Of a stretch of DNA of 64,000 nucleotides, positions 1,568-27,418 are shown piece after piece. The DNA comes from Acidimicrobiia bacterium (lineage in GTDB: Bacteria; Acidobacteriota; Vicinamibacteria; Vicinamibacterales; CAVVIG01). The position numbers were made by a program, and so were the translations under genes. Location of the stretch: positions 62,001 through 126,000 of the forward strand of contig VFZL01000005.1 in the NCBI GenBank assembly GCA_016871175.1. Reading direction: 5' to 3'. Numbering within the stretch: position 1 is the stretch's first letter; every line of letters starts with the position of its first letter. The notes under the pieces are model-generated. The model saw only the letters and a list, made by a program, of their open reading frames with translations. It had not been told where the DNA came from and did not search any database.

Positions 1568-2833
1568 TCACCTGATGGCGTAGAGCTGGCGCTCGCTGCG
1601 TAGATAGATCTCGCCGTGCGCGATGGCGGGTGACGCGATGAACGATTCGCCCGCCATCGTGTTCGTGGCGAGGACTTCGAAGGTCGGGCCCATCCGCACG
1701 ACCACGACATCGTCTGTCTCGGTGGCCAGGTAGAGTTTGCCGTTCGCCCCGACAGGCGACGCCTTGAATTGATACGGCTTGGGTAGGCGTTGCTGCTGAT
1801 AGTGCGGCTTACCCGTCTTGGCATCGAAAGCCGAGAGCATCCCCGAATCGGTGAGGAGATAGAGGATGCCGTCGTGCAGGACCGGGGACGGAGTGTACGA
1901 GTTGCCGCGCGTGTTCTCCCAGATGATGGCATCGGTCCCCGTGAGGTCGCCTTTGCGTCCCAGTCGAATCGCCTGCAGGTTCGGATTGCGGTAGCCACTC
2001 ATCACGAACACGAGTCCGCCCGTGGCGATCGGTTGCGGGATGGTGTTTTGGCCGAGCCCGCGCGCCCACCAGATGCGTGCGCCCGATGTGAAGTCGTATC
2101 CGACGGACTCACGAGAGGCGGACACGATGACCTGCTTCCGCCCGCTCACAGTCGTCACGTAGGGCCCGGACCAGTTCGTGTTCCCTTCCCGCGGGGCGCG
2201 CCACCGCTCCTTGCCCGTGGTCTTGTCGAGCGCGACGAGGAACGAGTTCCCCTCATGGTCGAGCAGCACGAGAAGCGTGTCGCCCTCGAGCCATGTCCAG
2301 GCACCTTCGCCGAACGTCATGTACATCCGCAGCGGACCGAAGTCCTTCTGCCACAGGAGTTGGCCGTCCATGGTGTACGCGTACAGGCCGCGCGAGCCAA
2401 AAAACGCGAAGACGTGCGTCCCGTCCGTGACGGGCGAGTTGGAGGCAAAGCTCCCATAGGTAGGGTGATGCAGCTCGTGCGGCGTGGCGGCCTTCGCCTC
2501 CCGCTCCCACACCAGCTTTCCCGTTGGCCGGTCGTAGCACAGGACCACGAAGCGGTGCTCGACGAGCCGCGCCTTGGCGGCGTCAGCGTCGACGGGGATC
2601 GCCGTTGTCAGGAAGATGCGATCGCCCGCAACGACGGGCGACGAGAATCCCCGGCCGGGCACGTTCACTTTCCACTTGATGCCCTCGGCGTCGCTCCACC
2701 GGAGCGGCGCATCGCCAACGGCCATGCCGGTGGCCGTAGGCCCCCGCCAATACGCCCAGTCACCGACGGCGGCGTCGATGGGCCAGTTCGCCACGGCCAG
2801 CGCTACAGAACACCAGAGGATCACGTGCTTCAT
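1568..2833 (-). CDS. Secreted PQQ-binding-like (BamB-type) beta-propeller protein
   Basis: The 421-residue protein starts with a signal peptide (MKHVILWCSVALAVANW, cleavage probably after the DAA region). WAYWRGPTATG follows, the usual opening of secreted BamB-like quinoprotein-fold propellers in Acidobacteriota and Planctomycetota. Repeated blades such as GDRIFLTTA, TGKLVWERE and TGKERW are visible. It lacks the vicinal cysteines and metal-site motif of true quinoprotein dehydrogenases, so it is probably a structural or binding propeller and not an enzyme. It is divergent from the following gene, with about 190 bp between the starts. It resembles the proteins at 11815-13140 and the C-terminal part of 25268-27418. 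Confidence 0.8.
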   Translation of the reverse strand: MKHVILWCSVALAVANWPIDAAVGDWAYWRGPTATGMAVGDAPLRWSDAEGIKWKVNVPGRGFSSPVVAGDRIFLTTAIPVDADAAKARLVEHRFVVLCYDRPTGKLVWEREAKAATPHELHHPTYGSFASNSPVTDGTHVFAFFGSRGLYAYTMDGQLLWQKDFGPLRMYMTFGEGAWTWLEGDTLLVLLDHEGNSFLVALDKTTGKERWRAPREGNTNWSGPYVTTVSGRKQVIVSASRESVGYDFTSGARIWWARGLGQNTIPQPIATGGLVFVMSGYRNPNLQAIRLGRKGDLTGTDAIIWENTRGNSYTPSPVLHDGILYLLTDSGMLSAFDAKTGKPHYQQQRLPKPYQFKASPVGANGKLYLATETDDVVVVRMGPTFEVLATNTMAGESFIASPAIAHGEIYLRSERQLYAIR

Positions 2834-3020
2834 GAGTTTCCTGCCCTAAGCGAGCCCTGCGGGCGAAGCGGGGTTGGAATGCCGCGCCATGCGCGCGGCG
2901 AGTTTAATGGTACCCGATTCCGCGCGTGCCGCAGCCGCCGGCTTGACACCTGGTGGCGACCGGTGCGTACATTCGGCGCTTCAGTCCCCAATCTGCGCAC
3001 ACGATCGCGGAGGAGGTCAC

Positions 3021-4748
3021 ATGCAACGAGCGTTTCACCCAGGGCTGCGACGCCCCGTGATCGCGGTCGCCGTCATCCTCGCCGGATCGCTGACGCTCGT
3101 GCGCGGCCAGGGGCGCGATACGCGCTTCGCCAATACCAATCGCCGTATAGAGCAGTTCAAGCCCGTCACCGAAGCGGAGCTGCGAAGTCCGAGCGCAGCC
3201 GACTGGCTCCAGTGGCGCCGTACATCCGATACGTGGGGCTACAGCCCGCTCACGCAGATCACGACCGCAAACGTCCATCACCTGCAGCTGGTGTGGTCGT
3301 GGCCGATGCAGACTGGTGCCGATCAGGCCGGACCGCTGGTGCGCGACGGTGTCATGTACCTGCCCAGCCCCTCGGGTATCCAAGCGCTGGATGCGGCGAC
3401 AGGGGAGTTCATCTGGGAGCTCAAGCGGAACGGCATCGCTCGGCGCAGCTTGGCGCTCTTCGGCGAACACCTCTACGCCACGACGGCCGAGGCGCATCTC
3501 ATCGCGGTGACCGCCGCAACGGGCACCATCGTGTGGGATCGGACCGTCGCCGATTCCAAGCTCGGATTCAAGTACACCAGCGGTCCACTCATCGCCAACG
3601 GCCTCGTCGTCGCCGGCATGACCGGGTGTGAGAAGTACAAGGAGGAGGTCTGTTTTATCTCCGCGCACGATCCGGTGACCGGCGAGCAGCGGTGGCGAAC
3701 GGCCACCGTCGCACGTCCAGGCGAGCCTGGCGGGGACTCCTGGGGAGAGCTCCCAGTTCGGTTGCGCGCCGGCGCGGACGCGTGGGTCCCCGGCTCATAC
3801 GATCCGGTGTCGAACCTGATCTTCTGGGGCACGTCGCAAGCCAAGCCATGGGCGAGCGCCCAGCGCGGGACAGACGCGGCCGCGCTGTACACAAACAGCA
3901 CGCTGGCGCTGGATGCCAGCACGGGCAGGTTGGTCTGGTACTTCCAACACATTCCTGGTGAAACACACGACCTCGACGAAGTGTTCGAGCGCGTGCTGGT
4001 CGACAGTGGCGATCGCCAGTCAGTCTTCAGTATGGGGAAGGCCGGCATTCTCTGGGAGCTGGAGCGGAAGACAGGCCGGTTCCTGAACGCCTTCGACCTC
4101 GGCTACCAGAACGTGCTGAACATCGACAAGCAGTCCGGGAAGGTGACGTATCGATCGAGCACGGTCCCGAAGCTAAACACGCCGGTGGAGTACTGCCCGG
4201 GGCCGGGTGGGTTCAAGAACCTCTTTGCGATGGCGTTTCACCCTGAGACGCGCGCGTTCTACATCCCTGTGAAGCTGAGTTGCGCGACGGCCGTCTACCG
4301 CGCGATGACGTCGCCAGACTGGGCGCAGGGTGGCAACGGACCGGCCGAGCGGACGTCCCTCCCGCATCCGGCGAGCCCGAACAATCTCGCCGCGCTCGTG
4401 GCGATGGACAGTCGGACCGGTCAGAGCCTGTGGCGCCACCCGAATCCGCTCCCGTACGACACCGCGGTGCTCACGACAGCCGGCGGCCTCGTGTTCGCGG
4501 GCGACATGGACCGGTACTTCACCTCGTTCGACGCCAGGACCGGCCAGGTGCTGTGGCGAACGCGGACGGCGACACCGCCCGACGGGTTCCCGATCACGTA
4601 CGAGGTCCGCGGTCGGCAGTACGTCGCCGTGCCCACTGGACCGGGATGGTTTGTAGGCTACTGGCACATCCGCGACGTCATGCCGAACTTCCATCGTGTC
4701 GATGGCGGTCCGGTCATGATGGTGTTCGCGCTGCCGGAGCGGACGTAA
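3021..4748 (+). CDS. PQQ-dependent dehydrogenase-like quinoprotein
   Basis: The ATG at 3021 is chosen because GGAGGAGG lies at 3008-3015 and the protein then opens with a signal peptide (FHPGLRRPVIAVAVILAG...LVRGQ). The frame is open further upstream but without a signal sequence. The 575-residue product shows the quinoprotein ADH layout: DWLQWRRTSDTWGYSPLTQI at the N terminus, blades such as ALDAATGEFIWEL and ALDASTGRLVWYFQ, and an acidic ETHDLDE segment where family members place the catalytic aspartate. No CxxCH motif is present, so there is no attached cytochrome domain. The substrate is unknown. The catalytic region is divergent from classical alcohol dehydrogenases. Confidence 0.8.
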   Translation: MQRAFHPGLRRPVIAVAVILAGSLTLVRGQGRDTRFANTNRRIEQFKPVTEAELRSPSAADWLQWRRTSDTWGYSPLTQITTANVHHLQLVWSWPMQTGADQAGPLVRDGVMYLPSPSGIQALDAATGEFIWELKRNGIARRSLALFGEHLYATTAEAHLIAVTAATGTIVWDRTVADSKLGFKYTSGPLIANGLVVAGMTGCEKYKEEVCFISAHDPVTGEQRWRTATVARPGEPGGDSWGELPVRLRAGADAWVPGSYDPVSNLIFWGTSQAKPWASAQRGTDAAALYTNSTLALDASTGRLVWYFQHIPGETHDLDEVFERVLVDSGDRQSVFSMGKAGILWELERKTGRFLNAFDLGYQNVLNIDKQSGKVTYRSSTVPKLNTPVEYCPGPGGFKNLFAMAFHPETRAFYIPVKLSCATAVYRAMTSPDWAQGGNGPAERTSLPHPASPNNLAALVAMDSRTGQSLWRHPNPLPYDTAVLTTAGGLVFAGDMDRYFTSFDARTGQVLWRTRTATPPDGFPITYEVRGRQYVAVPTGPGWFVGYWHIRDVMPNFHRVDGGPVMMVFALPERT

Positions 4749-4769
4749 CCATCCGCCGTCAAGCGCGCG

Positions 4770-6113
4770 TCAGCGCGAGGCCTCTCGTGCGAGTGGTCCG
4801 AAGAACGGACGCGGCGAGCCGCTTGTCCACCAGCGCCCATCGATGGCGCGTTCGCTCGAGGTGGTCATGTGCCACTGCGCGCGCGTCGCGCGGAGGTACC
4901 GAGGTGGGCCGTCCGGGAACGGATTGCCGGCCAACAGGCCGATGACTGCCGGTGAGCCCTCCAGGAGGCGTCGACAAAAAGGCTCGAACCACACGCTCTC
5001 GTCCGCCTCGCCCAAGGCCGCGAACCACATCTGCCAGTCGAGTCTCGGTTGATGCGGCGCCACCCAGCGCGGCCGCTGGGATGGATCACTCGGTTTGTCG
5101 CGGAACACGTACGGTCGCCACGATGTGCCGTCGACCGAACCCTCTATGGTGATCTCCGATCGCCGCGGTGTCATCACCGCGAAGAGCCCATAAGCGTTGA
5201 CCGAACGCAGCGGGAGGAGCGTTTCGCGGATCCGGAGCGTCCACGACGATCCAGGCAGCTCGAGGCCGGATTGACGCGCCAGGATGTCAACGGAAACCGG
5301 CACGGTCGCCATCGCCACGACGATGGACGCTACCGACTGCCACCGGGAGACAACGCAAGACGTCGTAGGCGACGAACGTGGCGGACTTCGCCGCGCTATC
5401 CTGTGCCACGCGGCATCGTCGACTAGCGTCAGCGCGAGTGCCGCGCTCAGCAGGTTGAAGAAGGCGTAGTTCCCCGTGAGCGCGATGAGTCCCTGCAGCG
5501 CCACCAAGAGCACAGCCGCAACGCGCTTCAACCAGCCACCACCGAAGATGAGCCACGGAACGAGAAGCTCGATGACGAGCACGCCCGCGGTCGACATCCG
5601 TTGAAACCACGCCGGCAGCTGATGCGCGTACCAGCCGAGGGGCGTCGGCAGTGGCTGCGTCTCGTAGTGAACCGCCAGCGCCGTGAGCCCGTTCCACAGC
5701 GGATCGCCACTGGCGAGCTTGACCACCCCGGACGCGAACATCAGGCGGAAGAGCAGCCACCAGATCAGCCAGCGCGCGAGACGCGGCGGGTCGTGCCGGC
5801 CGGGCCGCTCAATGAGCGTCCACGGTGCGAGGACCACAGCGATCGCGCCGGTCTCGAGGAGCAGCGCATCCCATTGAAACGCGAGAAACTCGCCCGTTAC
5901 GGTCATGAGCGAGAGATAGAGCAACCACAGCAGTGGCAGTACCGCAGCGCTGGCGAGGCCGAGGAAGAGCGGCAGCGACAGCAGCATGCCCAGCCGACAC
6001 ACGCCCGTGAGCCAGGCGTTGCTCGCACCAAACCAGAACACGGTCGGCCACTGAAGAAACCGGCTCCATCCGAGCGACTCTCCGTCCGCCCACACGCGCG
6101 CATTCGCCATCAT
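4770..6113 (-). CDS. Lipase maturation factor (LMF)-family membrane protein
   Basis: A multi-pass membrane protein with strong family features: GEFLAFQWDALLLETG, SGVVKLASGDPLWNGL, a TALAVHYETQPLPTPLGWYAHQLP loop, and a C-terminal soluble domain with PRWVAPHQPRLDWQMWFAALG. In animals LMF1 helps lipases fold in the ER; the bacterial role is unknown. The ATG used here (6113) starts in the middle of the homologous region. Upstream in the same frame, between the fdhE stop (6285-6287) and 6113, lie 57 codons that include WLFLRLLGAVYLLAFWS, a typical first helix of the family, but no ATG, GTG or TTG. The real start is therefore non-canonical, or the sequence carries an error. It follows fdhE on the same strand. 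Confidence 0.8.
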   Translation of the reverse strand: MMANARVWADGESLGWSRFLQWPTVFWFGASNAWLTGVCRLGMLLSLPLFLGLASAAVLPLLWLLYLSLMTVTGEFLAFQWDALLLETGAIAVVLAPWTLIERPGRHDPPRLARWLIWWLLFRLMFASGVVKLASGDPLWNGLTALAVHYETQPLPTPLGWYAHQLPAWFQRMSTAGVLVIELLVPWLIFGGGWLKRVAAVLLVALQGLIALTGNYAFFNLLSAALALTLVDDAAWHRIARRSPPRSSPTTSCVVSRWQSVASIVVAMATVPVSVDILARQSGLELPGSSWTLRIRETLLPLRSVNAYGLFAVMTPRRSEITIEGSVDGTSWRPYVFRDKPSDPSQRPRWVAPHQPRLDWQMWFAALGEADESVWFEPFCRRLLEGSPAVIGLLAGNPFPDGPPRYLRATRAQWHMTTSSERAIDGRWWTSGSPRPFFGPLAREASR

Positions 6114-8635: not shown

Positions 8636-11600
8636 TCAGACCTTCTCCAGCTTCACGAGAAACCCCTTGTACTCCGGCGCGAACGAGTTCGGATCGACCA
8701 CGGTCGGCGTCACGAGGTTGGCGAGCGAGCCGCGCTGCTCACCTTCACCAAGAAGTCCCCAGTGGATCGGGAATCCGATTTGATACACGGTCCGCCCGCT
8801 GACGCGCATCGGTTTGATGCGCCGTGTGACCATGGCGCGTCCTTCGATGGCCCCCCGCGCGGATGTGACTCGCACGCGGTCTCCGCTGGCGATCCCTTTC
8901 TCGGCGGCGAGCTGCTCCGGCATCTCGACGAAGAACTCCGGCTGCAGTTGGACGTTGTACTTGTTGTTCTTCGTCCAGTAGTGGAAGTGCTCGGTGAGCC
9001 GGTACGTCGTGCACACGATGGGGTAATCGGCAGCGTTGCCAAGCGTGTCGAACTCGGTCGTGAATGGCTGGAGCGCCGGATTCGTGCTGTGCGACGGATG
9101 GAGCGGGTTCGGCACCGGTGACTCGACCGGCTCGTAGTGCTCGGACCACGGCCCGTCCACGAACTGACCGGGGATGAAGAGGCGTGCGACTCCTTCCGGA
9201 TGCATGATGAACGCGCCCAGCGCAGCATCCGGAACGCTGTCGACCGTGTAGTCCGGCGTGTCGCCGACCCACCGTTGCCCGTTCCACGCGATGCCCACGC
9301 GAGTGGCATCCCACGGCCGGCCCTGTGCGTCGGCAGAGCATCGGTTATAGAGGATGCGTCGATTGGCGGGCCAACTGAACGTCCACTCCGGATGGCGCCC
9401 AAGACCGCTCGCGTCCGCGTACGAACGACGCTGGGTCAAGTTGCCGCCGTCCGTGTACATGCCGATGTACAGCCAGTTCCCAGACACAGTCGTCCCGTCG
9501 GCCCGTGCGTCGAGGAATCGCGAGAGCTGACTGCCGGCTCGCACCACCACGTTGCCCGCCGCATCGCGGACGTCAGCCAGCGCCCAGCCGTTCAGCTCCT
9601 TGCAGACTTCGTCGAGCGATGGGCTCACCGGATCCGTGTACCACCAATTCAACTTCAGCACCGGGTCGGGCAGACGCCCGCCGTCCCGCTGATACAGCTC
9701 GCGCACCTTCAAGAAGATCCGCGCCGCGATCTCCTGGTCCGGTTTCGCCTCGCCTGGTGGATCAACGGCTTTCCACTTCCACTGGATCCAGCGCGCGGAG
9801 TTGACGAACGACCCGTCCTTTTCGGCGAAGTTCGCCGCGGGGAGCATAAAGACCTCGGTGTCGTTCTCCTCGGGCTTCTGGCCGGCGAGCGCGAGGATCT
9901 CAGGCCTCCAGAAACTCGCGGTCTCGGTCTCGAAGTTCTCCGCGACAACGAGCCACTTCAGCTTCGCGAGCGCGCCCACCGCTTTGCGCGAGTTCGGGCC
10001 GTTGGTCACCGGGTTCATCCCGAAGCTGAAGAAGCCCTCGAGATCCCCGCGGTACATCCGATCGAAGATGTACGCCCAACTCCAGTTCTCGTACGTCCCC
10101 TCGGGCGTCTGGGGAAGCTTCGGATGCCAGTCGTACCCGAAACCGTTCTCGGGGGTGGCGGCGGCGCCGTAGTACGCCTTCATCTGGCTCACCGCGAAGC
10201 GATCCGTGTTCGACCAGAAGTTCGTGCTGTTCGGCCGCAGCGGTGCCGGCGTCGCAACCTTCAAGAACGTCGCGAGCGACGTGTGATCGGCTTTCGGGAT
10301 GGGCATGTAGCCCGGCAGGTTGTGGTATGCCATGCCGCAGTCGGTGCCGCCCTGGATGTTCGCGTGGCCGCGCAGCGCATTGAGACCTCCGCCCGGTCGT
10401 CCGATGTTGCCGAGCAGGAGCTGCAACATGGCCGCCGCGTGGATGAGTTGCACTGAGTGGCTGTGATGCGTCCAGCCGAGCGCGTACAACATCGTGCCGA
10501 CGCGATCCGGCGTGTGCGTCGATGTGATGATGTCGGCCGCAGCCACGAAGTCCTCGGCCGAGCAACCGCAGATCGACGCGACCATCTCCGGGGTGTACCG
10601 CGCGTAGAAGCGCTTCATCACTTGGAACACCGACCGCGGATGCTGGAGCGTCGGATCGACCTTGGCGAAGCCCTGCGCATCGAGCTCGTACGCCCAGCTG
10701 GATTTGTCCGCGTAGGCGTTCTTTTCCTCGTTCCAGCCCGAGAAGAGCCCAGTGGATTCGTCGAAGCGGTACTCTTCCGACACCAGGAACGACGCGTTGG
10801 TGAACAGCCGCACGTACTCATCGTGATACCGGTTTCGTGAGAGTGCGTGATGAATCAGCCCGCCGAGGAACGCGATATCGGTGCCGGCTCGAATCTGGAC
10901 GAACTTGTCGGCCACGGCCGCCGTTCGGTTGAATCGCGGATCCACGCACACGAGCGTCGCGTTGCGGGTGCGCTTGGCGTCCATCACGAAGCGGAAGCCC
11001 ACGGGGTGGTTCTCGGCCGGATTCCCACCCATGGCGAGCACGACGTCCGCGTTGCGGATGTCCGTCCACCCGTTGGTCATGGCGCCCCTACCGAACGTGG
11101 CGGCCAAACTGGCCACCGTCGGCCCGTGTCATATCCGGGACTGCTGCTCGATCGGAATCACGCCGAGGCCGGCGCGAAACGCCTTGACGAGCAGGTAGTT
11201 GACCTCGTTCGTATCGGTGCAGCCGCCGACCACCCCGACGCCGGTAAGGGCATTGATGGTTCGACCGGCGTAGTCGCGTTCAACGAGACGACGATCGCGC
11301 GCCTCCTTCAGCAGCCGGGCGATGCGGTCGATCGCGAAATCCCATGACTTCTCTTCCCAGGCCGTGCCGCGCGGCGCTCGGTAGAGCACCTTCGTCAGCC
11401 GCCGGTCGTTCACGATGTCCTGCTTGAGCGTGATCCCCTTCGGGCAGAGCGACCCGCGGTTGATGGGGTGATCGGGGTCACCCTCGACGTGGACCACGCT
11501 CGGTTTCACGTTCTGCGACCGGTCCCCGAGGGTATGAATGATGACGCCGCAGCTGACCGAGCAATACGGGCAGGTGGACCGCGTTTCGGTGGTGCGGGCG

Positions 11601-11713
11601 ATCTTCAGCTCGCGAACGGCCGCATACGCTGGCGTGAGATCGAAGCCGAGCGCCGTCGCGGCGACACCACCAATCGTTGATACCTTCAGGAACTCTCGAC
11701 GAGACGGTCGCAT
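8636..11713 (-). CDS. fdnG: Formate dehydrogenase catalytic subunit, selenocysteine-containing (alpha)
   Basis: The reading frame is interrupted by UGA at 11131-11129. The codons after it read HGPTVASLAATFGRGAMTN, which matches the segment directly after selenocysteine in E. coli FdnG. UGA is therefore Sec195 and the full protein is 1025 residues, against 1015 in E. coli. The N terminus has a twin-arginine signal (SRREFLKVSTIGGVAATALG), so the enzyme is exported and faces the periplasm. Cys48, Cys51, Cys55 and Cys90 bind a [4Fe-4S] cluster. Downstream lie bis-MGD domains, including WRPEILALAG and the C-terminal domain VTSARGAIEGRAMVTRRI. The host must encode SelA, SelB, SelC and SelD. GAGGGG precedes the ATG. 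Confidence 0.95.
11099..11131 (-). promoter_or_regulatory. Sec UGA codon with candidate bacterial SECIS hairpin
   Basis: The UGA (11131-11129) is followed after 11 nt by a perfect 7-bp stem, GGTGGCC (11117-11111) with GGCCGCC (11105-11099), closing an AGTTT loop. Bacterial SECIS elements sit immediately 3' of the UGA inside the coding region and present a short loop containing G and U to SelB. Position, loop size and loop bases fit this. The element is proposed from sequence only. Confidence 0.7.
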
Positions 11714-17304: not shown

Positions 17305-17551
17305 TTCGACTTGTTCGTCCTTCAGCCTTGACGGCGGTCGCGTGCACGTCGACCCGCCCGATGCTTTGCCCTCATATGATAGACGGTGGTACCCCCGGCG
17401 TCGAGCGCCATTCGCCTGACATTCGCAATACAACGGCCCACCAAGGCAGGGGCCCGGCGAGTCGCCAGTGGGTGGTCGACGTGCGCGTCGGGTGCCCGTG
17501 CGTTGCCCCGACGTCGCGGCGTCGTTAGACTCCACGCCGAAAGGAGACCAG

Positions 17552-19594
17552 GTGACGACACGACTCCGTGCGCTTCCTCTGCTGGCACTGCTCGCTGCGT
17601 GTCGCGCAACACCCGCCCCGCCCGCGGCTGATGCCGCGAAACCGGCCTTCGGCACGTTTGGCATCGACACGGCCAACATGGACTTCACAGTTGCGCCAGG
17701 CGACGATTTCCACGCGTACGTCAACGGCAAGTGGATCGCGACCGCCACCATCCCTCCTGACAAGGCGCGCTATGGTGTGTTCGATGCGCTGGGCGATCAG
17801 ACAGAACGAAACCTCCGACTGCTGGTGGAAGAGGCGGCTGGGGCGCCGCAGTCCCCAGGATCGGTCACACAGAAGGTCGCGGATTTCTATCGTTCCTGGA
17901 TGGACGAGCAGGCCATCGAGCAGCGCGGGCTGTCGCCGCTCGAGCCCGATCTCCGTGCGATCGCCTCGGCTGCCACGAAGGCGGACCTGCTCGCGTTGAT
18001 GGCGCGTCCCGACTTCACTGGACCGGTGAGCTTCACCATCGAGCCCGATCCCGCCGACGCCTCGAAGTACGTCGTGTTCATCGGCCAGGCCGGCTTGGGC
18101 ATGCCAAACCGCGATTACTACCTCAGAACCGGCGATCGATTCGACGCGTACAGATCGGCCTACCGCACCTATCTCGCACGGACCTTCGAGCTGATCGGCC
18201 AACCGGCGCCCGCGACGTCGGCCGACGAAGTGCTGGCGCTCGAGACGAAGCTGGCCACCGAGCATTGGTCGCCCGATCGGCAGCGGGATGTGCGGGCGAC
18301 AACCAATCCCATGGACCGTGCGGGCCTCGCCGCCTTGGCCCCGGCCATCCAGTGGCCCACGATATTAGCCGCCGCCGGGCTCGAGGCGGTGCAACGCGTC
18401 GTGGTGCGAGAAACGACCGCTGTGCGCGGCGGCGTCGCGTTGCTGTCGACCGAGTCGGTCGACGTGTGGAAGAAGTATCTCGCCTTCCATCTCGCCAACA
18501 GCTACGCCTCGTACCTGCCAAAGGCACTTGACGACGCCAGCTTCGCCTTCCACGAGAGAGCGCTCCGGGGCATCGAAGTGCCGCGCGAGCGCTGGAAACG
18601 GGGCGTGTCGCTGCTTGACCGCCAGCTGGGTGAGGGCATCGGCGAGCTTTACGTCGCGAAGCACTTTCTCCCCCCCGACCACAAAGACAAGATGGACGCG
18701 CTCGTCGCGAACCTGCGCACGGCGGTCGGCGCGCGTCTCAAGACGCTCGCCTGGATGGACGACACCACTCGCGCGGAAGCACTGAAGAAGCTCGCGACGT
18801 TCGACCCCCGCGTGGGCTATCCCGCGAAGTGGCGAGACTATCGCGCGCTCGCGATCCATCCGGGCACGCTCTTCGAGAACGTCCGCCATGCTCGCCGCTT
18901 CCACTGGGATCGGCAGGTCGCCCGTTTCCCGAAGCCCGTCGACCGCGGCGAATGGGGGATGACGCCGCAGACGGTCAACGCCTACTACGACCCGACGATG
19001 AACCAGATCACATTTCCGGCGGCCATTCTGCAGCCACCGTTCTTCGATCCGAGCGCGGATCCGGCGGTCAACTACGGCGCCATTGGCGCGGTGATCGGCC
19101 ACGAGATGGGCCATGGATTCGATGACCAAGGACGCGAGTACGACGAGACGGGCCGCATTCGCAACTGGTGGACGCCAGACACCAACGCGAGGTTTCTGGA
19201 GCAGACCAAGCGACTTGTCGCGCAGTACAACGCGTTTTGTCCGCTGCCCCCGCTGTGTGTGAACGGCCAGCTGACGCTCGGTGAGAACATCGGCGATCTC
19301 GGTGGCCTCGAGATGGCGTACACGGCGTACCGGTTATCGCTGAACGGCGGCACGGCGCCCGTGCTGGAGGGGTTCAGCGGCGACCAGCGCTTCTTCATGG
19401 CACACGCACAGTTGTGGCGCGCGATCCTGCGCGAGGACGCGCAGCGCAACCGGTTGCTGACCGATCCGCATGCGCCGCCCGAGGCACGTGGGTCGTACCC
19501 CGAGCGCAACATGGACGCGTGGTACGCTGCGTTCGGTGTCAAAGAAGGGCATCGCCTGTATCTCAAGCCCGAAGACCGCGTCAGGATCTGGTGA
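17552..19594 (+). CDS. M13-family zinc metalloendopeptidase (neprilysin/PepO type), lipoprotein
   Basis: A GTG start at 17552 with AAGGAGA at 17541-17547 gives 680 residues. The leader TTRLRALPLLALLAACRA contains a lipobox (LAAC), so the protein is probably lipid-anchored. It contains the M13 N-terminal sequence PGDDFHAYVNGKWI, the substrate-binding NAYYDPTMNQITFP, the zinc site HEMGH at residues 517-521, the third-ligand region GENIGDLGGLEMAYTAY and the conserved C-terminal PEDRVRIW. It degrades oligopeptides outside the cytoplasm. The length matches the family (about 670-690), so it is complete. Confidence 0.94.
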   Translation: MTTRLRALPLLALLAACRATPAPPAADAAKPAFGTFGIDTANMDFTVAPGDDFHAYVNGKWIATATIPPDKARYGVFDALGDQTERNLRLLVEEAAGAPQSPGSVTQKVADFYRSWMDEQAIEQRGLSPLEPDLRAIASAATKADLLALMARPDFTGPVSFTIEPDPADASKYVVFIGQAGLGMPNRDYYLRTGDRFDAYRSAYRTYLARTFELIGQPAPATSADEVLALETKLATEHWSPDRQRDVRATTNPMDRAGLAALAPAIQWPTILAAAGLEAVQRVVVRETTAVRGGVALLSTESVDVWKKYLAFHLANSYASYLPKALDDASFAFHERALRGIEVPRERWKRGVSLLDRQLGEGIGELYVAKHFLPPDHKDKMDALVANLRTAVGARLKTLAWMDDTTRAEALKKLATFDPRVGYPAKWRDYRALAIHPGTLFENVRHARRFHWDRQVARFPKPVDRGEWGMTPQTVNAYYDPTMNQITFPAAILQPPFFDPSADPAVNYGAIGAVIGHEMGHGFDDQGREYDETGRIRNWWTPDTNARFLEQTKRLVAQYNAFCPLPPLCVNGQLTLGENIGDLGGLEMAYTAYRLSLNGGTAPVLEGFSGDQRFFMAHAQLWRAILREDAQRNRLLTDPHAPPEARGSYPERNMDAWYAAFGVKEGHRLYLKPEDRVRIW

Positions 19595-19608: not shown

Positions 19609-21357
19609 ATGGATGCGTTGTGGAAGCACCGCGGTGTGCCCTGGGAGTTCGACCCGGTCCACCAGTTGACCGCCGGTGGGCGCGGATTTTCGCCGAGACG
19701 CCGAATTACCGCGCCATCGGCACGGCGGCCGGCGGCCACGAGCTCTTTCGGTGGCACTTCCGATGTTCTATCGTGGCCGCCTCACCGACGGTGCGGTGAG
19801 GGTGCTCGTCATCGGACAGGAAGGCGCGCAAGACGAGTCGCTGGCGCACCGGTCGTTCTCGGGTGGCACCGGCGCCCGCATGCAGCACTTCCCCCGGTCA
19901 CTTGGGCGTGACGCACTCGTATCTGTTTCTCAATACCTTCGTGTATCCCATCTTCGGCCAGTACGATGCCGATCTTCGTCCGCTCGCCCAGGGGTCGGAC
20001 TCACCGATCGTGGCCCATCGCCACGCGCTGCTGGACTACGTAGTCGAGCGCAACGACCTCCGGCTGGTGATCGCGGTTGGGACGGCGGCGAAGGAGACGG
20101 TGGTGACGTGGGTGCGATCGCGCGGTGGCACCTGCGCCGAGGGGCCCGAGGACGTCAGCCGGTGCAACACCGCGGCCATCGCCCCTCGCCTCAAAGCTGT
20201 CGGCGTCGTCCATCCGGGCTCGGCGGGTAGGGGCGGATCAGCGGCCGCTATCAAGGCGGACTTCATCCGTGCGCTGCAGAAGATCGAAACGTGGGCCGCC
20301 GCCGACCCGACATGGCTGCCGGTCGATGCCGGGGCCACGCGGGGATCGGCCGCCAGCTACATGTACACGAGCGCGCCCATCCCATTCCGGGACCTCCCCT
20401 ACGTTGTGGCATGGCGCATCGGTCGTGGAGGCACCTCGAGCAACCGCAAAGACAGCCAGCGCAGCATTCAGATGTTCTCGGCCAAGGGGAAGTACGGGTC
20501 GTCGGCGAAATACGCCACTGACGGACACGGCTCGGCCGAGGGCTACCAGGATGAGGCAGGCGACCTCCCGTACGAGCCGCCGAAGCGTACCCTTCGCCGA
20601 CTACGACCCCGGCCCGCCACCGCCCTTCGCCCAACTGCTCATGGGCGGCGATCCAGCGTTCCCGTGGCCGACGTTTCCCGACCTGGGTGTGACCGCGCAT
20701 CGATCGTTTGGCTACGGTCCCATCTATCGGGGGCGTTTCACGAGCGTTCGGCTCCTGATTCTGGCGGATCAGGAATCGCAGGATGATCTGTTTACGTTCC
20801 GCGCGCTGACCGGCGATGGCGGCCAGCGTCTCCAGGCGTGGCTGACGGCGGCTGGCCTGACGCGCAGCTATCTCATCCTGCGGTCGCTTCCCGTGGATAC
20901 CCTGGGCCTGTCGGACGCCACTCGGGAGGCGCTCATCGATCACGACTTCGTTCGTGCGCTGCACCGAGAGGCCGTGAGACGAGTCGCCTCCGCCAACCCG
21001 CTCGCCGCCATCGTCTCGGTGGGTTCGCTGTCCAAACGACTCCTACCGCACGTCGCCCCTGCCGGGCTGCCGCCTCTTGAAATGGCGGCGCCGAGCCAAC
21101 CTGGTTTCCTGGCGAGCTGGCGCGAGGCGCTCGACGCGTTTCGGTCGCTGTCGTTTCCTCGTGATGTGCCCTCGCCGAGCTTCTCCTACAGGGGCGAGCG
21201 AGGGCAGATCCCGCGATACGACCTGCCGTTCGGCACGTTGCGTTGGCAGGGGAGCTCTAGCGATCGTGGCGCACGGGCGACGCACCCCGCGTCGGCGGCG
21301 CAGCACTACTACAAGATCTACATGCCCAAGTGGGCGTTTCAACTCGATCCGCAGTAG
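19609..21357 (+). pseudogene. Tandem uracil-DNA-glycosylase-like protein, four frameshifts
   Basis: The coding sense moves through the frames near 19680, 19765, 19893 and 20575; the four shifts sum to zero and would give about 582 residues. The pieces read as one protein: MDALWKHRGVPWEF, FAETPNYRAIGTAAGGHEL, PMFYRGRLTDGAVRVLVIGQ, THSYLFLNTFVYPIFGQYD and a second copy GYGPIYRGRFTSVRLLILAD, RALTGDGGQRLQAW, LTRSYLILRSLP. Both halves share YRGR[LF], a Q-E motif in place of the UDG GQDP site, and in the first half VGVVHPGS, like the UDG HPS motif. This suggests two fused UDG-fold domains. ATG 19609 follows GAGGAGG. The next gene starts 12 bp downstream. Sequencing error or true decay cannot be told apart here. 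Confidence 0.6.
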
Positions 21358-21368
21358 GGCCAGGCGCG

Positions 21369-24300
21369 ATGAGCCCGACCCCCGTCGACACGGCTACGGG
21401 ACCCGCGTTCGTCCTTCGAGGACGCGTCGTGACCATGAACACCCATTTCGAGGTGCTGTCCGACGCGCGCTTGTGCATCGATCGGGGTGTGATCGCGCAC
21501 GTGCTGAAGCCGGGTGAGCCTGTTCCGGAGGCATTTCGTGCGGCACCGTCGGTCGACTCGACAGGCACGATCTACCCGGGCCTCATCGAGTTGCACAATC
21601 ACTTGCCCTACAACGTCCTGCCACCCTGGATCGTCCCGCAACGGTTCGGCAATCGGGGGCAGTGGCCTCGGCACGCCGACTACCGGCGGTTGATCAGTGG
21701 CCCTGTGAGCGTGATCGGTCGGACCCGCCTCCAAATCGAAGCGCTCGCGCGGTATGTCGAAGCCAAGTGCCTCGTGGGCGGCGTCACCACGTCACAAGGC
21801 ATCACCTTGTCGTCGAACAACCGTCTCCGCCGTTACTTTCGCGGTGTGGTCCGCAATGTCGAGCAGACGGGCGATCGTGCCCTGCCACAGGCGCAGACAC
21901 GCGTACCCGACGTGGCGGCCAAGGACGCGCAGCGGTTCCTCCGACAACTCGGCCGCGGATCGACCCGGTTGTTGCATCTCAGCGAAGGTGTCGACGAGCG
22001 TGCACGGTCATACTTCCTGTCGCTGCGGATCGACGGCAGGCGATGGGCGATCACCGACACGCTGGCGGCCATCCACTGCGCGGGCCTTCAGGGTGATGAC
22101 TTCAAGGTGCTGAAGAGGTTCGGCGCGTCGATGGTGTGGTCGCCGTTCAGCAATCTCCCGCTCTACGGCAACACGGTGGACATCAGGAAGGCCAAGGATG
22201 CCCGACTCACGGTGGCGCTCGGCTCGGACTGGACCCTGTCAGGATCGAAGAATCTGCTTGGCGAGCTGAAGGTCGCCCGTCTGTGGAGCGAGGCGCAGAA
22301 TGGCGTGTTCAGCGCGCGTGAGCTCGTCGCGATGGTGACGATCAACCCCGCGCGAATCCTGAAATGGCACGAGCAGCTCGGGTCGATTGGTCCGGGTCGG
22401 CGAGCCGATTTGCTGGTGATCGCCGGCACGTCGGGCGACCCCTACGATCGATTGATTGACGCCCGCGAGGACGCCGTCACGCTGGTGGTGATCGACGGCT
22501 GGCCGCGGTACGGCTCGCCTGAGGTCATGCGGCCGTTTCCCGTGACCGAGTCCAGAACTATCGCCGGCGCCCCGAGGCGTTTCAACTTCGCCCACCACGC
22601 TGCGGATCCCCTCGTGCGTGACCTGTCGTTGGCCGAGGCGGAAACCCGTCTGGAAGACGGCATGAAACGCCTGCCCGAGCTGGCCGCGCTCCTGGAGAAC
22701 CCGGTCGCGGCCACCGGTGTGTTTGGTGCCGTGGTGCCTGGTCAGGAAGGGGTATGGGTCATCGACCTCGACCACGAGGATCACGATGGCCTCGTGGCGC
22801 GGCCGCAGTTGCCCTTTGGCGGGGAGCTGACCGGGCTGTTCGCGCAAGGGAGCACGGCCGAGCCGTTGTCGCAAATCCTGCAATCCATGCGCCTCGACCC
22901 GCTGACGGTTGTCGACGACACGCGATGGGCCGACACGCTGGCGGCAAAGACCAACCTCGATCCAGAGATCAAGCGCGGCCTGGCGCTGGCCTTTGGCCGC
23001 ACGCTTCCTGCGCCGAATCGCGATCCAGGCGGTGGCGCCGCCGTCGAGGTGCAGGTCGACGGAGGCGCGAGCTCCATTCGCACGCTTCGAGAGCTGCTCA
23101 AGCTCCCCGGCGTGCTGACGCTGGCCGATCGTCGCGCCATTGTCGACCAGGCGCTCCAGCTCGTGGAAGGGGCGTACGTGCACCTGCCGTACAAGCGGTC
23201 GATGCATGCGGTCGATCCGGTCCAGCACCTGCGGTTGCTTGCCGACCGCCTGAGCCAGGCCTCGCCCGAGCTGAGGAGCTCGGAGTGGGAGTTTCATCGC
23301 GATCTCACGACCATCTTCGCGTCGCTGCGCGATCTGCACACGGCGTATCTTCTGCCGGCTCCGTATCGCCACTACACGGCGTACTTGCCGTTTCTCGTCG
23401 AGGAGTACGTCGACGAGAGAGGTGAACCGCGCTATATCGTGTCGAAAGTGGCGCGCGATCTCGATCGCCCGACCTTCAAGCCGGGTGTCGAGGTTCTGTA
23501 CTGGAACGGAAGTGCGATGCGCCGCGTGGTGGCCGCGAATGCCGCTCGGGAAGCCGGAAGCAACCCCGATGCTCGCCACGCCCGAGGCCTTGTCTCGCTC
23601 ACGTCACGACCGTTGATGCGCTCGCTGCCGCCCGATGAGGAATGGGTCACGCTGACCCATCGCGACCAGCAGGGCTTGCAACGCGAGATTCGCCGCCCGT
23701 GGCTCGTTCGCGACATACGGGCCGCGATGCTGGACCTCGACGAGTCCGATCCGAGAGCGCTCGCTCGGGCCACGCTCCTCGGTCTTGATGTCGAGACCGA
23801 CCTGGTCAACCAGACACGCCGGATGTTGTATGCACCGCCCCTCGTCGCCGGCGCGCCAGCGCGAGCGCTGACGCCGAGCGTGCGTGGCCGCGCGGTCCCG
23901 CTGTGGAAGAGGCACGTGTCGACGAGTCTGCCGGGCGTCTTCCAGGTGGCGCGCGTCCACACGCGGAAAGGGAAGTTCGCTTACGTCCGTATCTACACGT
24001 TCAACGTCCCGAGCGCCGAGGCGTTCGTGGCGGAGTTCTGTCGATTGTTGGCGGATCTGCCGGGACACGGGCTGATCGTCGACGTGCGCGGGAACGCTGG
24101 GGGGGCTCATCACCGCAGCCGAGCAACTCCTGCAGGTGCTCACGCCGAAGCGCATCGAGCCCGAGCCCGCCGAGCTCGCAACGACCGCGTTCATGCTGCG
24201 CCTCTGCCGCGCGCACGCGCCGTCAACTGCCGCGTTGGGCCTCGACCTGTCCGCTTGGATCCCTTCGATGGAGCGGGCGCTGCGCACCGGTGCGGCGTAT

Positions 24301-25062
24301 TCGGCGGGACATCCGATTACGTCGCCCGCGGCCGCCAACGCGGTGGGGCAGCGCTACACCGGGCCGGTCGTGCTCATTACCGACGGGTCGTGCTACAGCG
24401 CGACGGACATGTTCGCGGCCGGATTCCAGGACCATGGCATCGGACCGGTGCTCGGCGTTGGCGGCCGGACCGGTGCCGGTGGCGCCAATGTGTGGACGAG
24501 TCAGCTGGTGGCGGCGTTGGCCAACACGGGCCGCGCGACGCCCGCTCTGGCGAGGCTTCCGCATGGCGCCGGGTTCACGGTGGCCGTTCGACGCACGTTG
24601 CGAGTGGGTGCGAGGGCGGGCACGCCGGTCGAAGACAGCGGGGTGGAGCCGACCGTGCGCTACGAGATGACCCGGCGCGATCTTTTGGAAGGCAATCGCA
24701 ACCTCATCGAACGGGCGGCCCAGATGCTCGCAAAGCTGCCGGTTCACGGCTTCGACGTGGTCGTGGACGCGCTCCGATCGGACGCTGCAGCGTCGGGCGC
24801 AGACACGCCGACCGGCAGGCGCGCGCTGGGGACGCGGCGCATCCGTCTGCGGCTGCGAACCTCGAACATCGACCGCGTGGATGTGTTTGCGGACCAACGA
24901 CCGGTGCTCTCGATCACGATCAGCGATGGCCGGACAACTCGAGCGCTGACGGTGGCCCGAACGGTGCGGCAGCTGGCGGTGCACGGTTTCCGGCGCGACG
25001 CGCTCGTCGCGACGCGCCGCATCCCGCTTCGGCGACGCCGGCACGAGCCGGGTGCCCTGTGA
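21369..25062 (+). pseudogene. Deaminase-like amidohydrolase fused to S41 peptidase, one frameshift
   Basis: Two frames join at a run of seven G (24099-24105); with one G fewer the gene encodes 1230 residues. Residues about 15-400 form an amidohydrolase of the nucleobase/SAH-deaminase type: YPGLIELHNHLPYN (H75, H77), LLHLSEGVDE, IHCAGLQGDD with WSPFSNLPLYG, and LGSDWTLSGSKNLLGELK for the metal Asp. A linker region follows. The C-terminal part is an S41 tail-specific protease: YVRIYTFNVPSAEAF, LIVDVRGNAGG, and GPVVLITDGSCYSATDMFAA with the predicted nucleophile Ser. No signal peptide is seen, so it is cytosolic. It is co-oriented with the UDG-like gene, 11 nt after its stop. A deaminase-protease fusion is unusual. 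Confidence 0.65.
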
Positions 25063-25267
25063 AGGCGGAGCGAGCCCTCCCGTTCCGCCATCGACCTCCC
25101 GTCCCGTTAGGTTCGGCGGGGCTTACGCTCAACCCGCAAACCCTGCTAGTGTCTTCGCGTTGCGCACGGCTTTGGTTGCGCCGCGATGATCGCCAGGACG
25201 CCTCGAGGAAGAGCCCGCGCGACACGCCGTGCACGCGCGGTTCTGTCGGCGCGAAAGCAGGTCAACG

Positions 25268-27418
25268 ATGAAGCACCCGATATCCCGCGTTGCCGCTGTG
25301 TTTCTGGTCGCGCTGGTGAGCGCGTCGGTCCGCGCACAAGACTCGCCCCTGTTCACGGCAGCGGAACGAGGTGATCTGGATACCGTACACCGGCTGCTGC
25401 AGACAGGTGCCAGTCCAGTGGCGTCGGGGACGGTGCAGGTGGGCAGTCGCAGGTTCCGCGTGAGCGCCCTTGGCGTGGCAGCGCTTGCCTGGCACGCCGA
25501 TATCGCACGCCTGCTCATGGAACGGGGCGCTCCGCACCCGACCTACTTCGTCCGCAATCACAACCTCATTCCGGCGAATCGTCAAGAGCTCGACGAGCTG
25601 CGCGATTGGGAGGTGGTCAATTCGGTCCTCCGCGCGGCCGACGTCGCCGAGATCACCCGCGCGATCGTCGAACGGGACGCGACCGGCGTCTACCGCACGC
25701 ACGACGGTCGTCAATTCACGGCGACGCTCGACGCCAACGGCGTGCGGCTGACCACACTCGATGGGACCGTTCTGCCGTTCGTCCTCGTCTCCGGGCGCGC
25801 GTTCCTGCAGCGCATACCCCCGCCGCCTCAGTCCAACGCTCCGCCGCCGGCACCCGCCAGGGCGCGAACACCGCAGGATCTGGCGATGTTCTCGCGTTTC
25901 GTGGAGCCGTTGCCGCCGTCCGAACGTGACGCGTTCCTGGAGCAGTTTCGCACCCGGGGCGGCACCTGGCTCGAGTTCGTGATCGGCGAAGGCCGTGTCT
26001 TGGCGCTCGAGATCCGTGAGGGAGGGCCCGCGAGGCTCGGAGGCACACCGACGCTGTACCGGAGAGTCGGTGCACAGCCCGAGGCGTCTCCGTTGCTCGA
26101 GCGCGAGCTGGCGTCGATCCGTCCGACGCGTCCGCCGCTCAATTGGCCGTCATTCCGAGGTCCGAATGCGTCGGGTATCGCCGACGGGCAGGCCCCCCCG
26201 GTGGCATGGGACGAAGAGCGCCGGATCAACGTCCGCTGGCGTGCGGCTATCCCCGGACTCGGACATTCGTCCCCCGTCGTGTGGGGCGATCGCGTCTTCG
26301 TCACGACCGCGGTGAGCTCGCTGCCGAATCCGGAGTTCCGACCAGGAGGACTGCGTGGCGACAACGTGTCGCCGGACCGGACCGAACAGGAATGGCGAGT
26401 GCTCGCCCTCGACAAGGCCACCGGGAAGATGGTGTGGGAACGGACCGCCCACCGCGGGACGCCACGGGGCATCCGCCACCTGAAGAGCAGCTTCGCCACG
26501 GCGACGCCCGCCACCGACGGCAGGCATGTGGTGGCGATGTTTGGCTCGGAAGGGCTCTACTGCTACGACGTGAACGGGACCTTCCTCTGGAAGAAGGACC
26601 TCGGTATCGTCGGCCACAGTCAGTACGGCTTCGCGAGCTCGCCGGTCATTTTCAACGGGCTCGTGATCGTGCAGGCTGACACGAGCCAGGACGCTAGAGA
26701 CGCGACGACGCGCGCCAGTTTCATCGCTGCGTTCGAGCTGGCCGACGGTCGCGAGCGTTGGCGTGTGAGCCGCGACGAAGATGGCCGCGGGTCGTTCGGA
26801 TCGCCGATCGTCTACGAGCGGGACGGCCGCGCACAGATTGTGACCAACGGGGGCACACGCGTCCGCGCGTACGATCCGTCGAACGGCAGGGAAATCTGGT
26901 CGCTCGCGGCGCCGTCCGACATCGTGACGCCGACGCCGGTGGCCGCTGCGGATCTCATCTACGTGATGAGCGGAAACGCCGGCTATCAACCGATCTTCGC
27001 AATTCGCCCGACTGCCATCGGCGACGTCACGCCGAAACCCGGAGAGCCGAGCAACGACTTCGTCGCCTGGAGCTCGACGCGAGGGGGCGCGTTCACCCCG
27101 ACGCCGATTGTGTACGGCGGCTACCTGTACACCATGAATGTCAGCGGTCTGCTCGGGTGCTACGACGCGAAGACGGGCGCGCGCCAGTACCTCCAGCGCG
27201 TCCACCATGGCGGCTCGGGATTCAGCAGCTCGCCGGTGGCTGCCGATGGCCGCCTCTACTTTGCGAGCGAAGACGGCGAGGTGATGGTCGTGAGGGCCGG
27301 TCCGACATTCGAGGTGCTCGCGACCAACGTCATGAGCGAAGTCATCATGTCGTCACCGGCCATCTCAGGCGGTCTGATCTTCATCCGCACGCTCGGCCAC
27401 CTGGTGGCGATCGGGTGA
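25268..27418 (+). CDS. Secreted ankyrin / PQQ-binding-like propeller fusion protein
   Basis: The 716-residue protein has a signal peptide (KHPISRVAAVFLVALVSASVRA). One or two ankyrin-type repeats follow (SPLFTAAERGDLDTVHRLL and VAALAWHADIARLLMERGA), then a proline-rich linker near residue 190. The last 430 residues form a BamB-like propeller beginning LNWPSFRGPNASGIADG and including LALDKATGKMVWER and AYDPSNGREIWSL. It combines the two secreted repeat families found separately elsewhere in this window. The function is unknown; binding roles are more likely than catalysis. It is preceded by 205 bp without a recognisable gene. Confidence 0.8.
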   Translation: MKHPISRVAAVFLVALVSASVRAQDSPLFTAAERGDLDTVHRLLQTGASPVASGTVQVGSRRFRVSALGVAALAWHADIARLLMERGAPHPTYFVRNHNLIPANRQELDELRDWEVVNSVLRAADVAEITRAIVERDATGVYRTHDGRQFTATLDANGVRLTTLDGTVLPFVLVSGRAFLQRIPPPPQSNAPPPAPARARTPQDLAMFSRFVEPLPPSERDAFLEQFRTRGGTWLEFVIGEGRVLALEIREGGPARLGGTPTLYRRVGAQPEASPLLERELASIRPTRPPLNWPSFRGPNASGIADGQAPPVAWDEERRINVRWRAAIPGLGHSSPVVWGDRVFVTTAVSSLPNPEFRPGGLRGDNVSPDRTEQEWRVLALDKATGKMVWERTAHRGTPRGIRHLKSSFATATPATDGRHVVAMFGSEGLYCYDVNGTFLWKKDLGIVGHSQYGFASSPVIFNGLVIVQADTSQDARDATTRASFIAAFELADGRERWRVSRDEDGRGSFGSPIVYERDGRAQIVTNGGTRVRAYDPSNGREIWSLAAPSDIVTPTPVAAADLIYVMSGNAGYQPIFAIRPTAIGDVTPKPGEPSNDFVAWSSTRGGAFTPTPIVYGGYLYTMNVSGLLGCYDAKTGARQYLQRVHHGGSGFSSSPVAADGRLYFASEDGEVMVVRAGPTFEVLATNVMSEVIMSSPAISGGLIFIRTLGHLVAIG

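Follow-up and report, generated by a model that had tools for sequence, protein, structure and literature searches.

A tandem uracil-DNA-glycosylase-fold protein beside a deaminase-type amidohydrolase: a candidate base-processing module with changing proteases

What might a protein resembling two uracil-DNA glycosylases (UDGs) in tandem do beside a gene that joins a deaminase-like amidohydrolase to a serine protease? This layout lies in a 64,000-nucleotide stretch of contig VFZL01000005.1 (positions 62,001 to 126,000, hereafter the window) from a bacterial genome of 4.44 Mb (GCA_016871175.1), where both genes occupy the plus strand at 19609-25062. We refer to the gene of the UDG-like protein as gene 1, to the amidohydrolase-protease gene as gene 2, and to the amidohydrolase, fused or separate, as AMH. 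Translation of the window places gene 1 between an ATG at 19609 and a stop at 21355-21357, and gene 2 between an ATG at 21369, 11 bp after gene 1, and 25062, bearing out the extent assigned in a first reading of these letters (the original prediction); the motifs named there (HNH, LHLSEG, IHCAG, LGSDW, VDVRGNAGG and GSCYSATD) were likewise all found in the translations. Each protein falls in a known fold family, and their combination appears to be a new module, with a predicted function. Our searches of the open-access literature gave no description of a UDG-AMH-protease module, in line with the original prediction, which knew of no described system with such a layout. The fold, the conserved residues, the linkage and the signs of export were all computed, and from them we infer, as our best guess, base excision followed by base deamination; a conserved base-processing module is the reading we favour, tentatively and at somewhat less than an even chance. 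The module hints that the bases of nucleic acids can be processed by a route not yet described.

Fold and active-site residues of the tandem protein

As assembled, gene 1 is split into five segments by four frame changes (near 19655, 19760, 19893 and 20588), and its pieces taken alone have no UDG match in Pfam. Against the Pfam model PF03167 (cut-off 24.3 bits), an intact relative (P0002) and the gene 1 proteins of loci L059 and L122 score 38.8, 38.1 and 29.3 bits, all above the cut-off, and that of L163 scores 18.1 bits, below it. A profile built from 16 tandem relatives had a single match among PDB sequences, the UDG of Bradyrhizobium diazoefficiens (BdiUNG, 5gn2; E = 1.8e-23), around motif A of the N-terminal half. 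For the gene 1 protein of L051, AlphaFold gave a model with a mean pLDDT of 82.6 and a pTM of 0.87; all ten Foldseek matches of this model at E up to 0.001 were UDGs, with BdiUNG at the top (E = 1.3e-11). Structural superposition with VIA-align gave Z = 19.2 for the C-terminal half against BdiUNG (root-mean-square deviation 2.6 over 237 residues), while the N-terminal half aligned to the family-4-type UDGs 4zby (Z = 11.4) and 2d3y (Z = 10.7). By this model, both halves of gene 1 are predicted to have the UDG fold, with BdiUNG as the nearest solved structure. The original prediction had proposed two UDG-like halves and had asked for a structure prediction as a check; both halves came out UDG-like.

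The two halves differ in their active-site residues, which we counted in all 58 gene 1 hits except the window's fragment and the single-domain L159 and L160; the remaining 55 comprise 29 close sequences and 26 others (25 distant Bdellovibrionota and the contig-cut L061). The N-terminal half (19609-20588, four of the reading segments) was delimited by translation, alignment to an intact relative, the fold of the L051 relative and residue conservation, and carries GQEGAQDE, NTF and HPG. Position 74 is acidic in 54 of the 55 sequences (E in 30, namely all 29 close sequences and one other, D in 24, A in 1), N111 is present in 55/55 and H202 in 51/55, and these acid, Asn and His residues stand at the positions of motif A, TN and motif B. 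Motif A reads GQEG in all 29 close sequences and GQD in most distant ones. The C-terminal half (20588-21357, after the last frame change), placed by alignment, the L051 fold and conservation, has a degenerate-looking site, with ADQ for GQE, Arg for Asn and no HP motif. Its aligned acid position holds Q in the close group and mostly P in the distant one; the Asn position holds R in 29/29 close sequences and, among the 25 others with a letter there, K in 20, N in 3, R in 1 and S in 1. Of 60 aligned sequences, five of them without a C-terminal half, one shows HP in the motif B region of that half. The loss of the acid is not certain, because D390, one residue ahead of the aligned position and present in 54/54 sequences with a letter, would be put there by a one-residue alignment slip; alignment of the L051 C-terminal half to BdiUNG also gives Q at this position, but at an E of only 0.0028. 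We read gene 1 as encoding one putatively catalytic UDG domain (N-terminal) and one apparently degenerate UDG domain (C-terminal).

The same residues bear on a quite unlikely alternative, in which the UDG-like protein has no catalytic activity and acts as a scaffold that binds nucleic acid or a ligand on behalf of AMH and the protease. A scaffold would accommodate a C-terminal half with no HP motif and mostly no Asn, as well as the altered motif A Pro and motif B in the N-terminal half of the close group, but the near-invariance of the N-terminal acid, Asn and His across 55 diverse sequences goes beyond what a scaffold would need.

BdiUNG (Blr0248) shares the fold of gene 1 but is a single chain of 272 amino acids with GQDPAQHE and HPT, whereas gene 1 is tandem, its close group reads GQEGAQDE and HPG, its second domain looks degenerate, it is linked to AMH and a protease, and it has export-like starts in Bdellovibrionota. 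By the marks of a BdiUNG class (a single domain with GQDP), which derive from one solved member, gene 1 falls outside, being tandem with GQEG. The UDG fold is also common to gene 1, family 4 UDG and UdgX (Z = 10.7-12.7). Family 4 UDG and UdgX have iron-sulphur cysteines; the L051 gene 1 protein has zero cysteines and so cannot hold such a cluster by cysteines. It also has neither the motif A of family 4 and UdgX, GE(A/G)PG or GEQPG, nor the KRRIH loop of UdgX, as these are given in the accessible part of PMC10359453.

Linkage of gene 1 to the amidohydrolase and to several proteases

The 58 loci (the window, L039, L051-L066, L109-L128 and L157-L176) were all collected by gene 1 and none by AMH. 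Bdellovibrionota account for 46 of them, spread over 45 genomes. Two classes with 31 and 34 hit-bearing genomes supplied 26 and 18 of these, respectively, mostly the best-scoring ones, and L056 was added. Genes were called by simple open-reading-frame picking, which missed the AMH of L039, added by hand. Outside Bdellovibrionota, AMH lies at most three genes from gene 1 in 11/11 evaluable loci of 12 (10 found by script and L039; L061, at a contig end, is not evaluable). Within Bdellovibrionota it does so in 12/46 loci (10/21 close and 2/25 distant), where 15 of the 21 close and 19 of the 25 distant loci either show a hit or extend for three or more genes in both directions. All 22 AMH hits fell within three genes of gene 1, among 301 genes, and none among the 420 genes further off. 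The single-domain UDG relatives L159 and L160, with a BdiUNG-like GQDP motif, each stand beside an AMH as well, which in L160 is an AMH-S41 fusion.

The two genes also tend to share genomes. Where a close gene 1 has no adjoining AMH, an AMH lies elsewhere in G548, G550, G551 and G552 and two AMHs lie in G549; none was found in G553, G554 and G557. In the class of G550, AMH occurs in 10/31 genomes with any gene 1 hit versus 3/98 without one, and in the class of G552 in 15/34 versus 3/109. A Mantel-type correlation of UDG and AMH distances gave r = 0.40 over 21 loci (0/5000 permutations) and r = 0.47 over nine loci outside Bdellovibrionota (70/5000 permutations), a result that cannot distinguish co-inheritance from a common history of the species and that we do not use as proof. 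The pairing of gene 1 with AMH is not chance. The original prediction had drawn a functional link from adjacency in a single genome; the link gains from the two genes being neighbours in at least three phyla, through gene fusion and a change of protease, and falls short in distant Bdellovibrionota. The genome survey it had called for found the genes at most three genes apart in every evaluable locus outside Bdellovibrionota and in part of those inside, and so did not refute the link, the distant group being the exception.

The AMH domain of gene 2 (21369-22568, end approximate; HxH, HLSEG, IHC and LGSDW) was delimited by Pfam, NCBIfam, alignment and conservation, and gene 2 scores 68.6 bits against Pfam Amidohydro_1 (cut-off 25). 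Among the 22 AMHs found by script next to gene 1, H77, H79, H201, E204 and H234 are present in 22/22 and D285 in 21, with a gap in one. We take this set (HxH, H-x-x-E, H, D) to be that of a subtype III deaminase-type amidohydrolase, and AMH is predicted from these residues to keep an intact deaminase-type metal site. Its best PDB matches include AtzA, SAH/MTA deaminase, 8-oxoguanine deaminase and guanine deaminase. It shares the HxH, HxxE, H, D site with the guanine/8-oxoguanine/SAH deaminase and AtzA group but has an HLAEG/HLSEG variant and, in six loci, a protease fusion, and it scores far below the cut-offs of all NCBI families listed for it; against guanine deaminase TIGR02967 (cut-off 375.4), for instance, the window and L051 reach 63.9 and 76.9 bits. 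In L161, the AMH (2476-5823, minus strand) carries an extra N-terminal part of about 500 amino acids that matched nothing in Pfam and found no PDB entry at an E better than 0.79.

The remainder of gene 2 (22569-25062), a linker followed by a CPAF/Ctp-like S41 serine protease, was placed by translation, Pfam, NCBIfam and conservation. Its only frame change lies at or next to the seven-G run 24099-24105, and because of it VDVRGNAGG and GSCYSATD stand in different frames. The second frame of gene 2 scores 35.5 bits against Pfam Peptidase_S41 (PF03572, cut-off 24), so that both parts, checked against deaminase and S41 profiles, agree with the original assignment of gene 2 as a deaminase-type amidohydrolase joined to an S41 protease. 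The Ser, His and Glu motifs are all found by pattern in six of eight S41 proteins; L157 has no Ser pattern as written, and in the window the Ser and Glu motifs sit in the other frame. Like CPAF, CtpA and Tsp, the module S41 passes the Pfam S41 cut-off and has the His, Ser and Glu motifs; unlike them, it carries an N-terminal amidohydrolase fusion in six loci, and the CPAF model stays at 59.7 bits, below its cut-off of 250.

Across the 58 loci, a fused or adjacent protease was recognised in ten. An S41 protease is present in eight, fused to AMH in the window, L051, L054, L055, L157 and L160 (1180, 1194 and 1223 amino acids in L051, L054 and L055) and separate in L039 and in L052, where the AMH has 535 amino acids. 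The gammaproteobacterial L053 has a metzincin-like protease gene between gene 1 and AMH (Reprolysin_4, 27.1 bits, cut-off 22; HEIGHMLGLPH), and in L166 the protease that adjoins AMH, divergent from gene 1, is of the clostripain family (Peptidase_C11, E = 1.6e-21). More proteases may exist, because types other than S41 were sought in single proteins only. That the protease type varies while UDG and AMH stay suggests that proteolysis as such, and not one particular protease, may be what is needed. An AlphaFold run on the 1180-amino-acid AMH-S41 fusion from five sequences reached a pLDDT of 41.5 and a pTM of 0.29, and this model was not used. S41 relatives standing alone, at loci in G119, G179, G186, G187, G189 and G190, had no gene 1 or AMH match alongside. 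At L043, L045, L046 and L047, an S41-protease relative of about 660 amino acids adjoins a protein of about 1000 amino acids that looks by eye like a Ser/Thr kinase (4/4 loci), possibly a separate kinase-protease pair.

Relatives of gene 1 are scattered over several phyla. A pattern scan of a genome collection of 84,980 species with two tandem proteins returned 16 loci: five from Actinomycetota (L051, L052, L054, L055 and L061; Acidimicrobiia, Acidimicrobiaceae, Nitriliruptoraceae), one gammaproteobacterium (L053) and ten from Bdellovibrionota (Oligoflexia, Bdellovibrio, Bdellovibrionales, Bdellovibrionota, Halobacteriovoraceae and Bacteriovoracaceae). In the window's own class, the tandem form was seen only in the window and in G192, which belongs to another family of the same order and has gene 1 followed by a separate AMH of 518 amino acids and a separate S41 protease. 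The G192 gene 1 is 66% identical to that of L051 and 55% to that of the window, its nearer kin by genome; because it is closer to L051, this suggests that gene 1 moved between phyla. Profile hits to gene 1 occur in 31/129 and 34/143 genomes of two classes centred on Bdellovibrionota genomes, in 6/296 genomes of the class of the acidimicrobiial G544 (two of them single-domain) and in 3/396 genomes of the window's phylum (one a short match). Rejected hits in the window's class include weak ones that overlap a long opposite-strand frame resembling a TonB-type receptor (G125), overlap other genes (G075) or are a single UDG frame (G133), as well as a single-domain UDG (G118).

Such a scattered distribution, with hits in so few genomes of the window's phylum, would also suit an anti-phage or conflict system in which the UDG-like protein, in the manner of Brig1, targets modified DNA of phages, helped or controlled by the deaminase and the protease. 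DNA glycosylases are repair enzymes. Since Brig1, they are also intracellular defence enzymes: according to the accessible part of PMC11078745, Brig1 alone confers immunity, many of its homologues lie in defence islands, and one adjoins an ADP-ribosyl glycohydrolase gene. Gene 1, like this UDG-superfamily defence glycosylase, would place the fold outside housekeeping repair. L052 lies near AbiEi-like and patatin-type genes, and these account for both of the two matches that PADLOC returned among ten tested neighbour proteins (AbiEi-like; patatin/phospholipase type), the other eight, including the window's four, having none. In this context the module differs from Brig1: among the ten neighbours, defence models match in one locus only. 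The module proteins had no match in PADLOC 2023, a library that predates the Brig1 paper of 2024; PHROGs gave no match for three proteins, the plasmids searched contained no gene 1 match, and none of 37 pattern matches in viral contigs was confirmed as gene 1. Export-like starts in Bdellovibrionota do not fit an intracellular defence either. Defence is improbable, and the stress or conflict role raised in the original prediction is not supported.

Export-like starts, neighbours and possible functions

To judge export we used a home-made rule (a positively charged start, a hydrophobic 10-mer, and a lipobox or an A-x-A-like site). Gene 1 passes it in 32/46 Bdellovibrionota loci (13 with a lipobox) versus 0/12 elsewhere, and AMH passes in 12/12 versus 0/10, while the rule also passes 43/155 other genes in the loci outside Bdellovibrionota; the L053 AMH has a lipobox-like segment by eye. 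An earlier rule (eight hydrophobic residues in 12) passed 43/46 Bdellovibrionota gene 1 proteins and was dropped for the stricter one because it also passed 375/556 other genes. By these starts, Bdellovibrionota copies often appear to carry export signals, and gene 1 proteins from other phyla have no evident one.

Two neighbours recur close to gene 1 in Bdellovibrionota. An EEP nuclease occurs in 7/46 loci and a NADAR-like protein in 7/46, in each case at most three genes from gene 1 and never among the 420 further genes. In L059 the nuclease matches Exo_endo_phos_3 (E = 5.7e-25) and the NADAR-like copy stays under the Pfam cut-off. The two genes, both with signal-like starts, stand side by side adjoining the tandem UDG gene in L058 (7900-9705), L059 (7898-9698), L062 (574-2367) and L122 (5094-6871). 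In L063, L064, L065, L073, L109, L110, L111 and L112, members of two further small families, F3 and F4, lie beside or between the tandem UDG gene and AMH. Each family occurs in six loci and begins with a signal-like segment, and the L064 copies had no Pfam match.

In a base-processing module, a base that is damaged, deaminated or modified would be cut from its nucleic acid at the N-glycosidic bond by the N-terminal half of gene 1. The C-terminal half would hold the substrate or a partner, AMH would hydrolyse (deaminate) the released base or nucleoside, and the protease would remove or mature a protein part of the reaction. In Bdellovibrionota, exported versions might break down foreign nucleic acid, from prey or the environment. 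Base excision is the easier to propose because BdiUNG-like enzymes act on uracil derivatives, hypoxanthine and xanthine, as described in the accessible part of PMC8307549. A bolder version would be a previously undescribed cross-phylum system whose tandem DNA glycosylase and base deaminase, served by proteases that can replace one another, strip and destroy the bases of foreign nucleic acid, and which, outside the cytoplasm in Bdellovibrionota, directs exported base excision against prey DNA; we rate this as conceivable but doubtful. A glycosylase-deaminase pair found in at least three phyla, with three unrelated protease types and with apparent export in the kin of predatory bacteria, would extend the UDG fold to a new role. 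Intact proteins for substrate tests are available from L051, L052, L064 and L166.

Several points weigh against base processing. The module may act on a substrate that is not nucleic acid. In gene 1, motif A (GQEGA) and motif B (HPG) deviate from the motifs of active UDG families quoted in the accessible part of PMC10359453. AMH is about equally distant from guanine deaminase, 8-oxoguanine deaminase, SAH/MTA deaminase and AtzA, and base deamination is therefore not established. No protease was recognised in 48/58 loci, where only S41 was sought in all loci and other types by Pfam in single proteins, and what the protease does is unexplained by base processing. Just 2/25 distant Bdellovibrionota loci keep AMH nearby, and the Fisher tests for co-occurrence with any gene 1 hit (p = 3e-5 and 1e-8 in the two classes) treat genomes as independent and ignore shared ancestry, so they overstate the association. 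Finally, the export rule is crude and also passes 223/544 other genes in the same Bdellovibrionota loci.

A different substrate is the core of a further, unlikely alternative, in which the module dismantles or detoxifies a small nucleoside-peptide-type natural product or another N-glycoside, with the N-glycosidase, the deaminase and the peptidase each cutting one part. Three hydrolases of different bond types kept together while the protease changes (S41, metzincin-like, clostripain) would fit such a task, as would the coexistence of cytosolic and exported versions and the NADAR-like neighbours, whereas the EEP nuclease neighbours point to nucleic acid, and the accessible part of PMC8307549 describes BdiUNG, the closest relative of solved structure, as a DNA glycosylase. 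No recurring transporter was noticed, in a reading of the loci that included no systematic search for transport or biosynthesis genes; one permease-like protein adjoins gene 1 in L039. The union of a glycosylase with several unrelated protease types also recalls cytosolic repair of DNA or DNA-protein crosslinks, with the protease clearing protein, but such repair would leave both the deaminase and the export-like starts in Bdellovibrionota unexplained, and we consider it very unlikely.

Frame changes and other features of the window

Genes 1 and 2 together hold five frame changes within 5.5 kb, which the original prediction did not mention, while the genes on either side are each one undisrupted open frame, a pattern of local assembly error or of decay. 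These flanking genes encode an M13 peptidase (17468-19594) and, on the other side, a PQQ-type beta-propeller protein (25229-27418). Sequencing or assembly indels are more likely than decay to a pseudogene, because intact one-frame relatives exist: gene 1 has 594 amino acids in G192 and 596 in L051, and gene 2 is intact in L051 at the length given above. A search of the window against Rfam gave no match, and a tRNA search found none. Further upstream, at 8636-11713 on the minus strand, the window encodes a protein that looks by eye like a formate dehydrogenase, with an in-frame TGA between IEQQSRI and HGPTVASLAATFGRGAMTN that resembles a selenocysteine codon.

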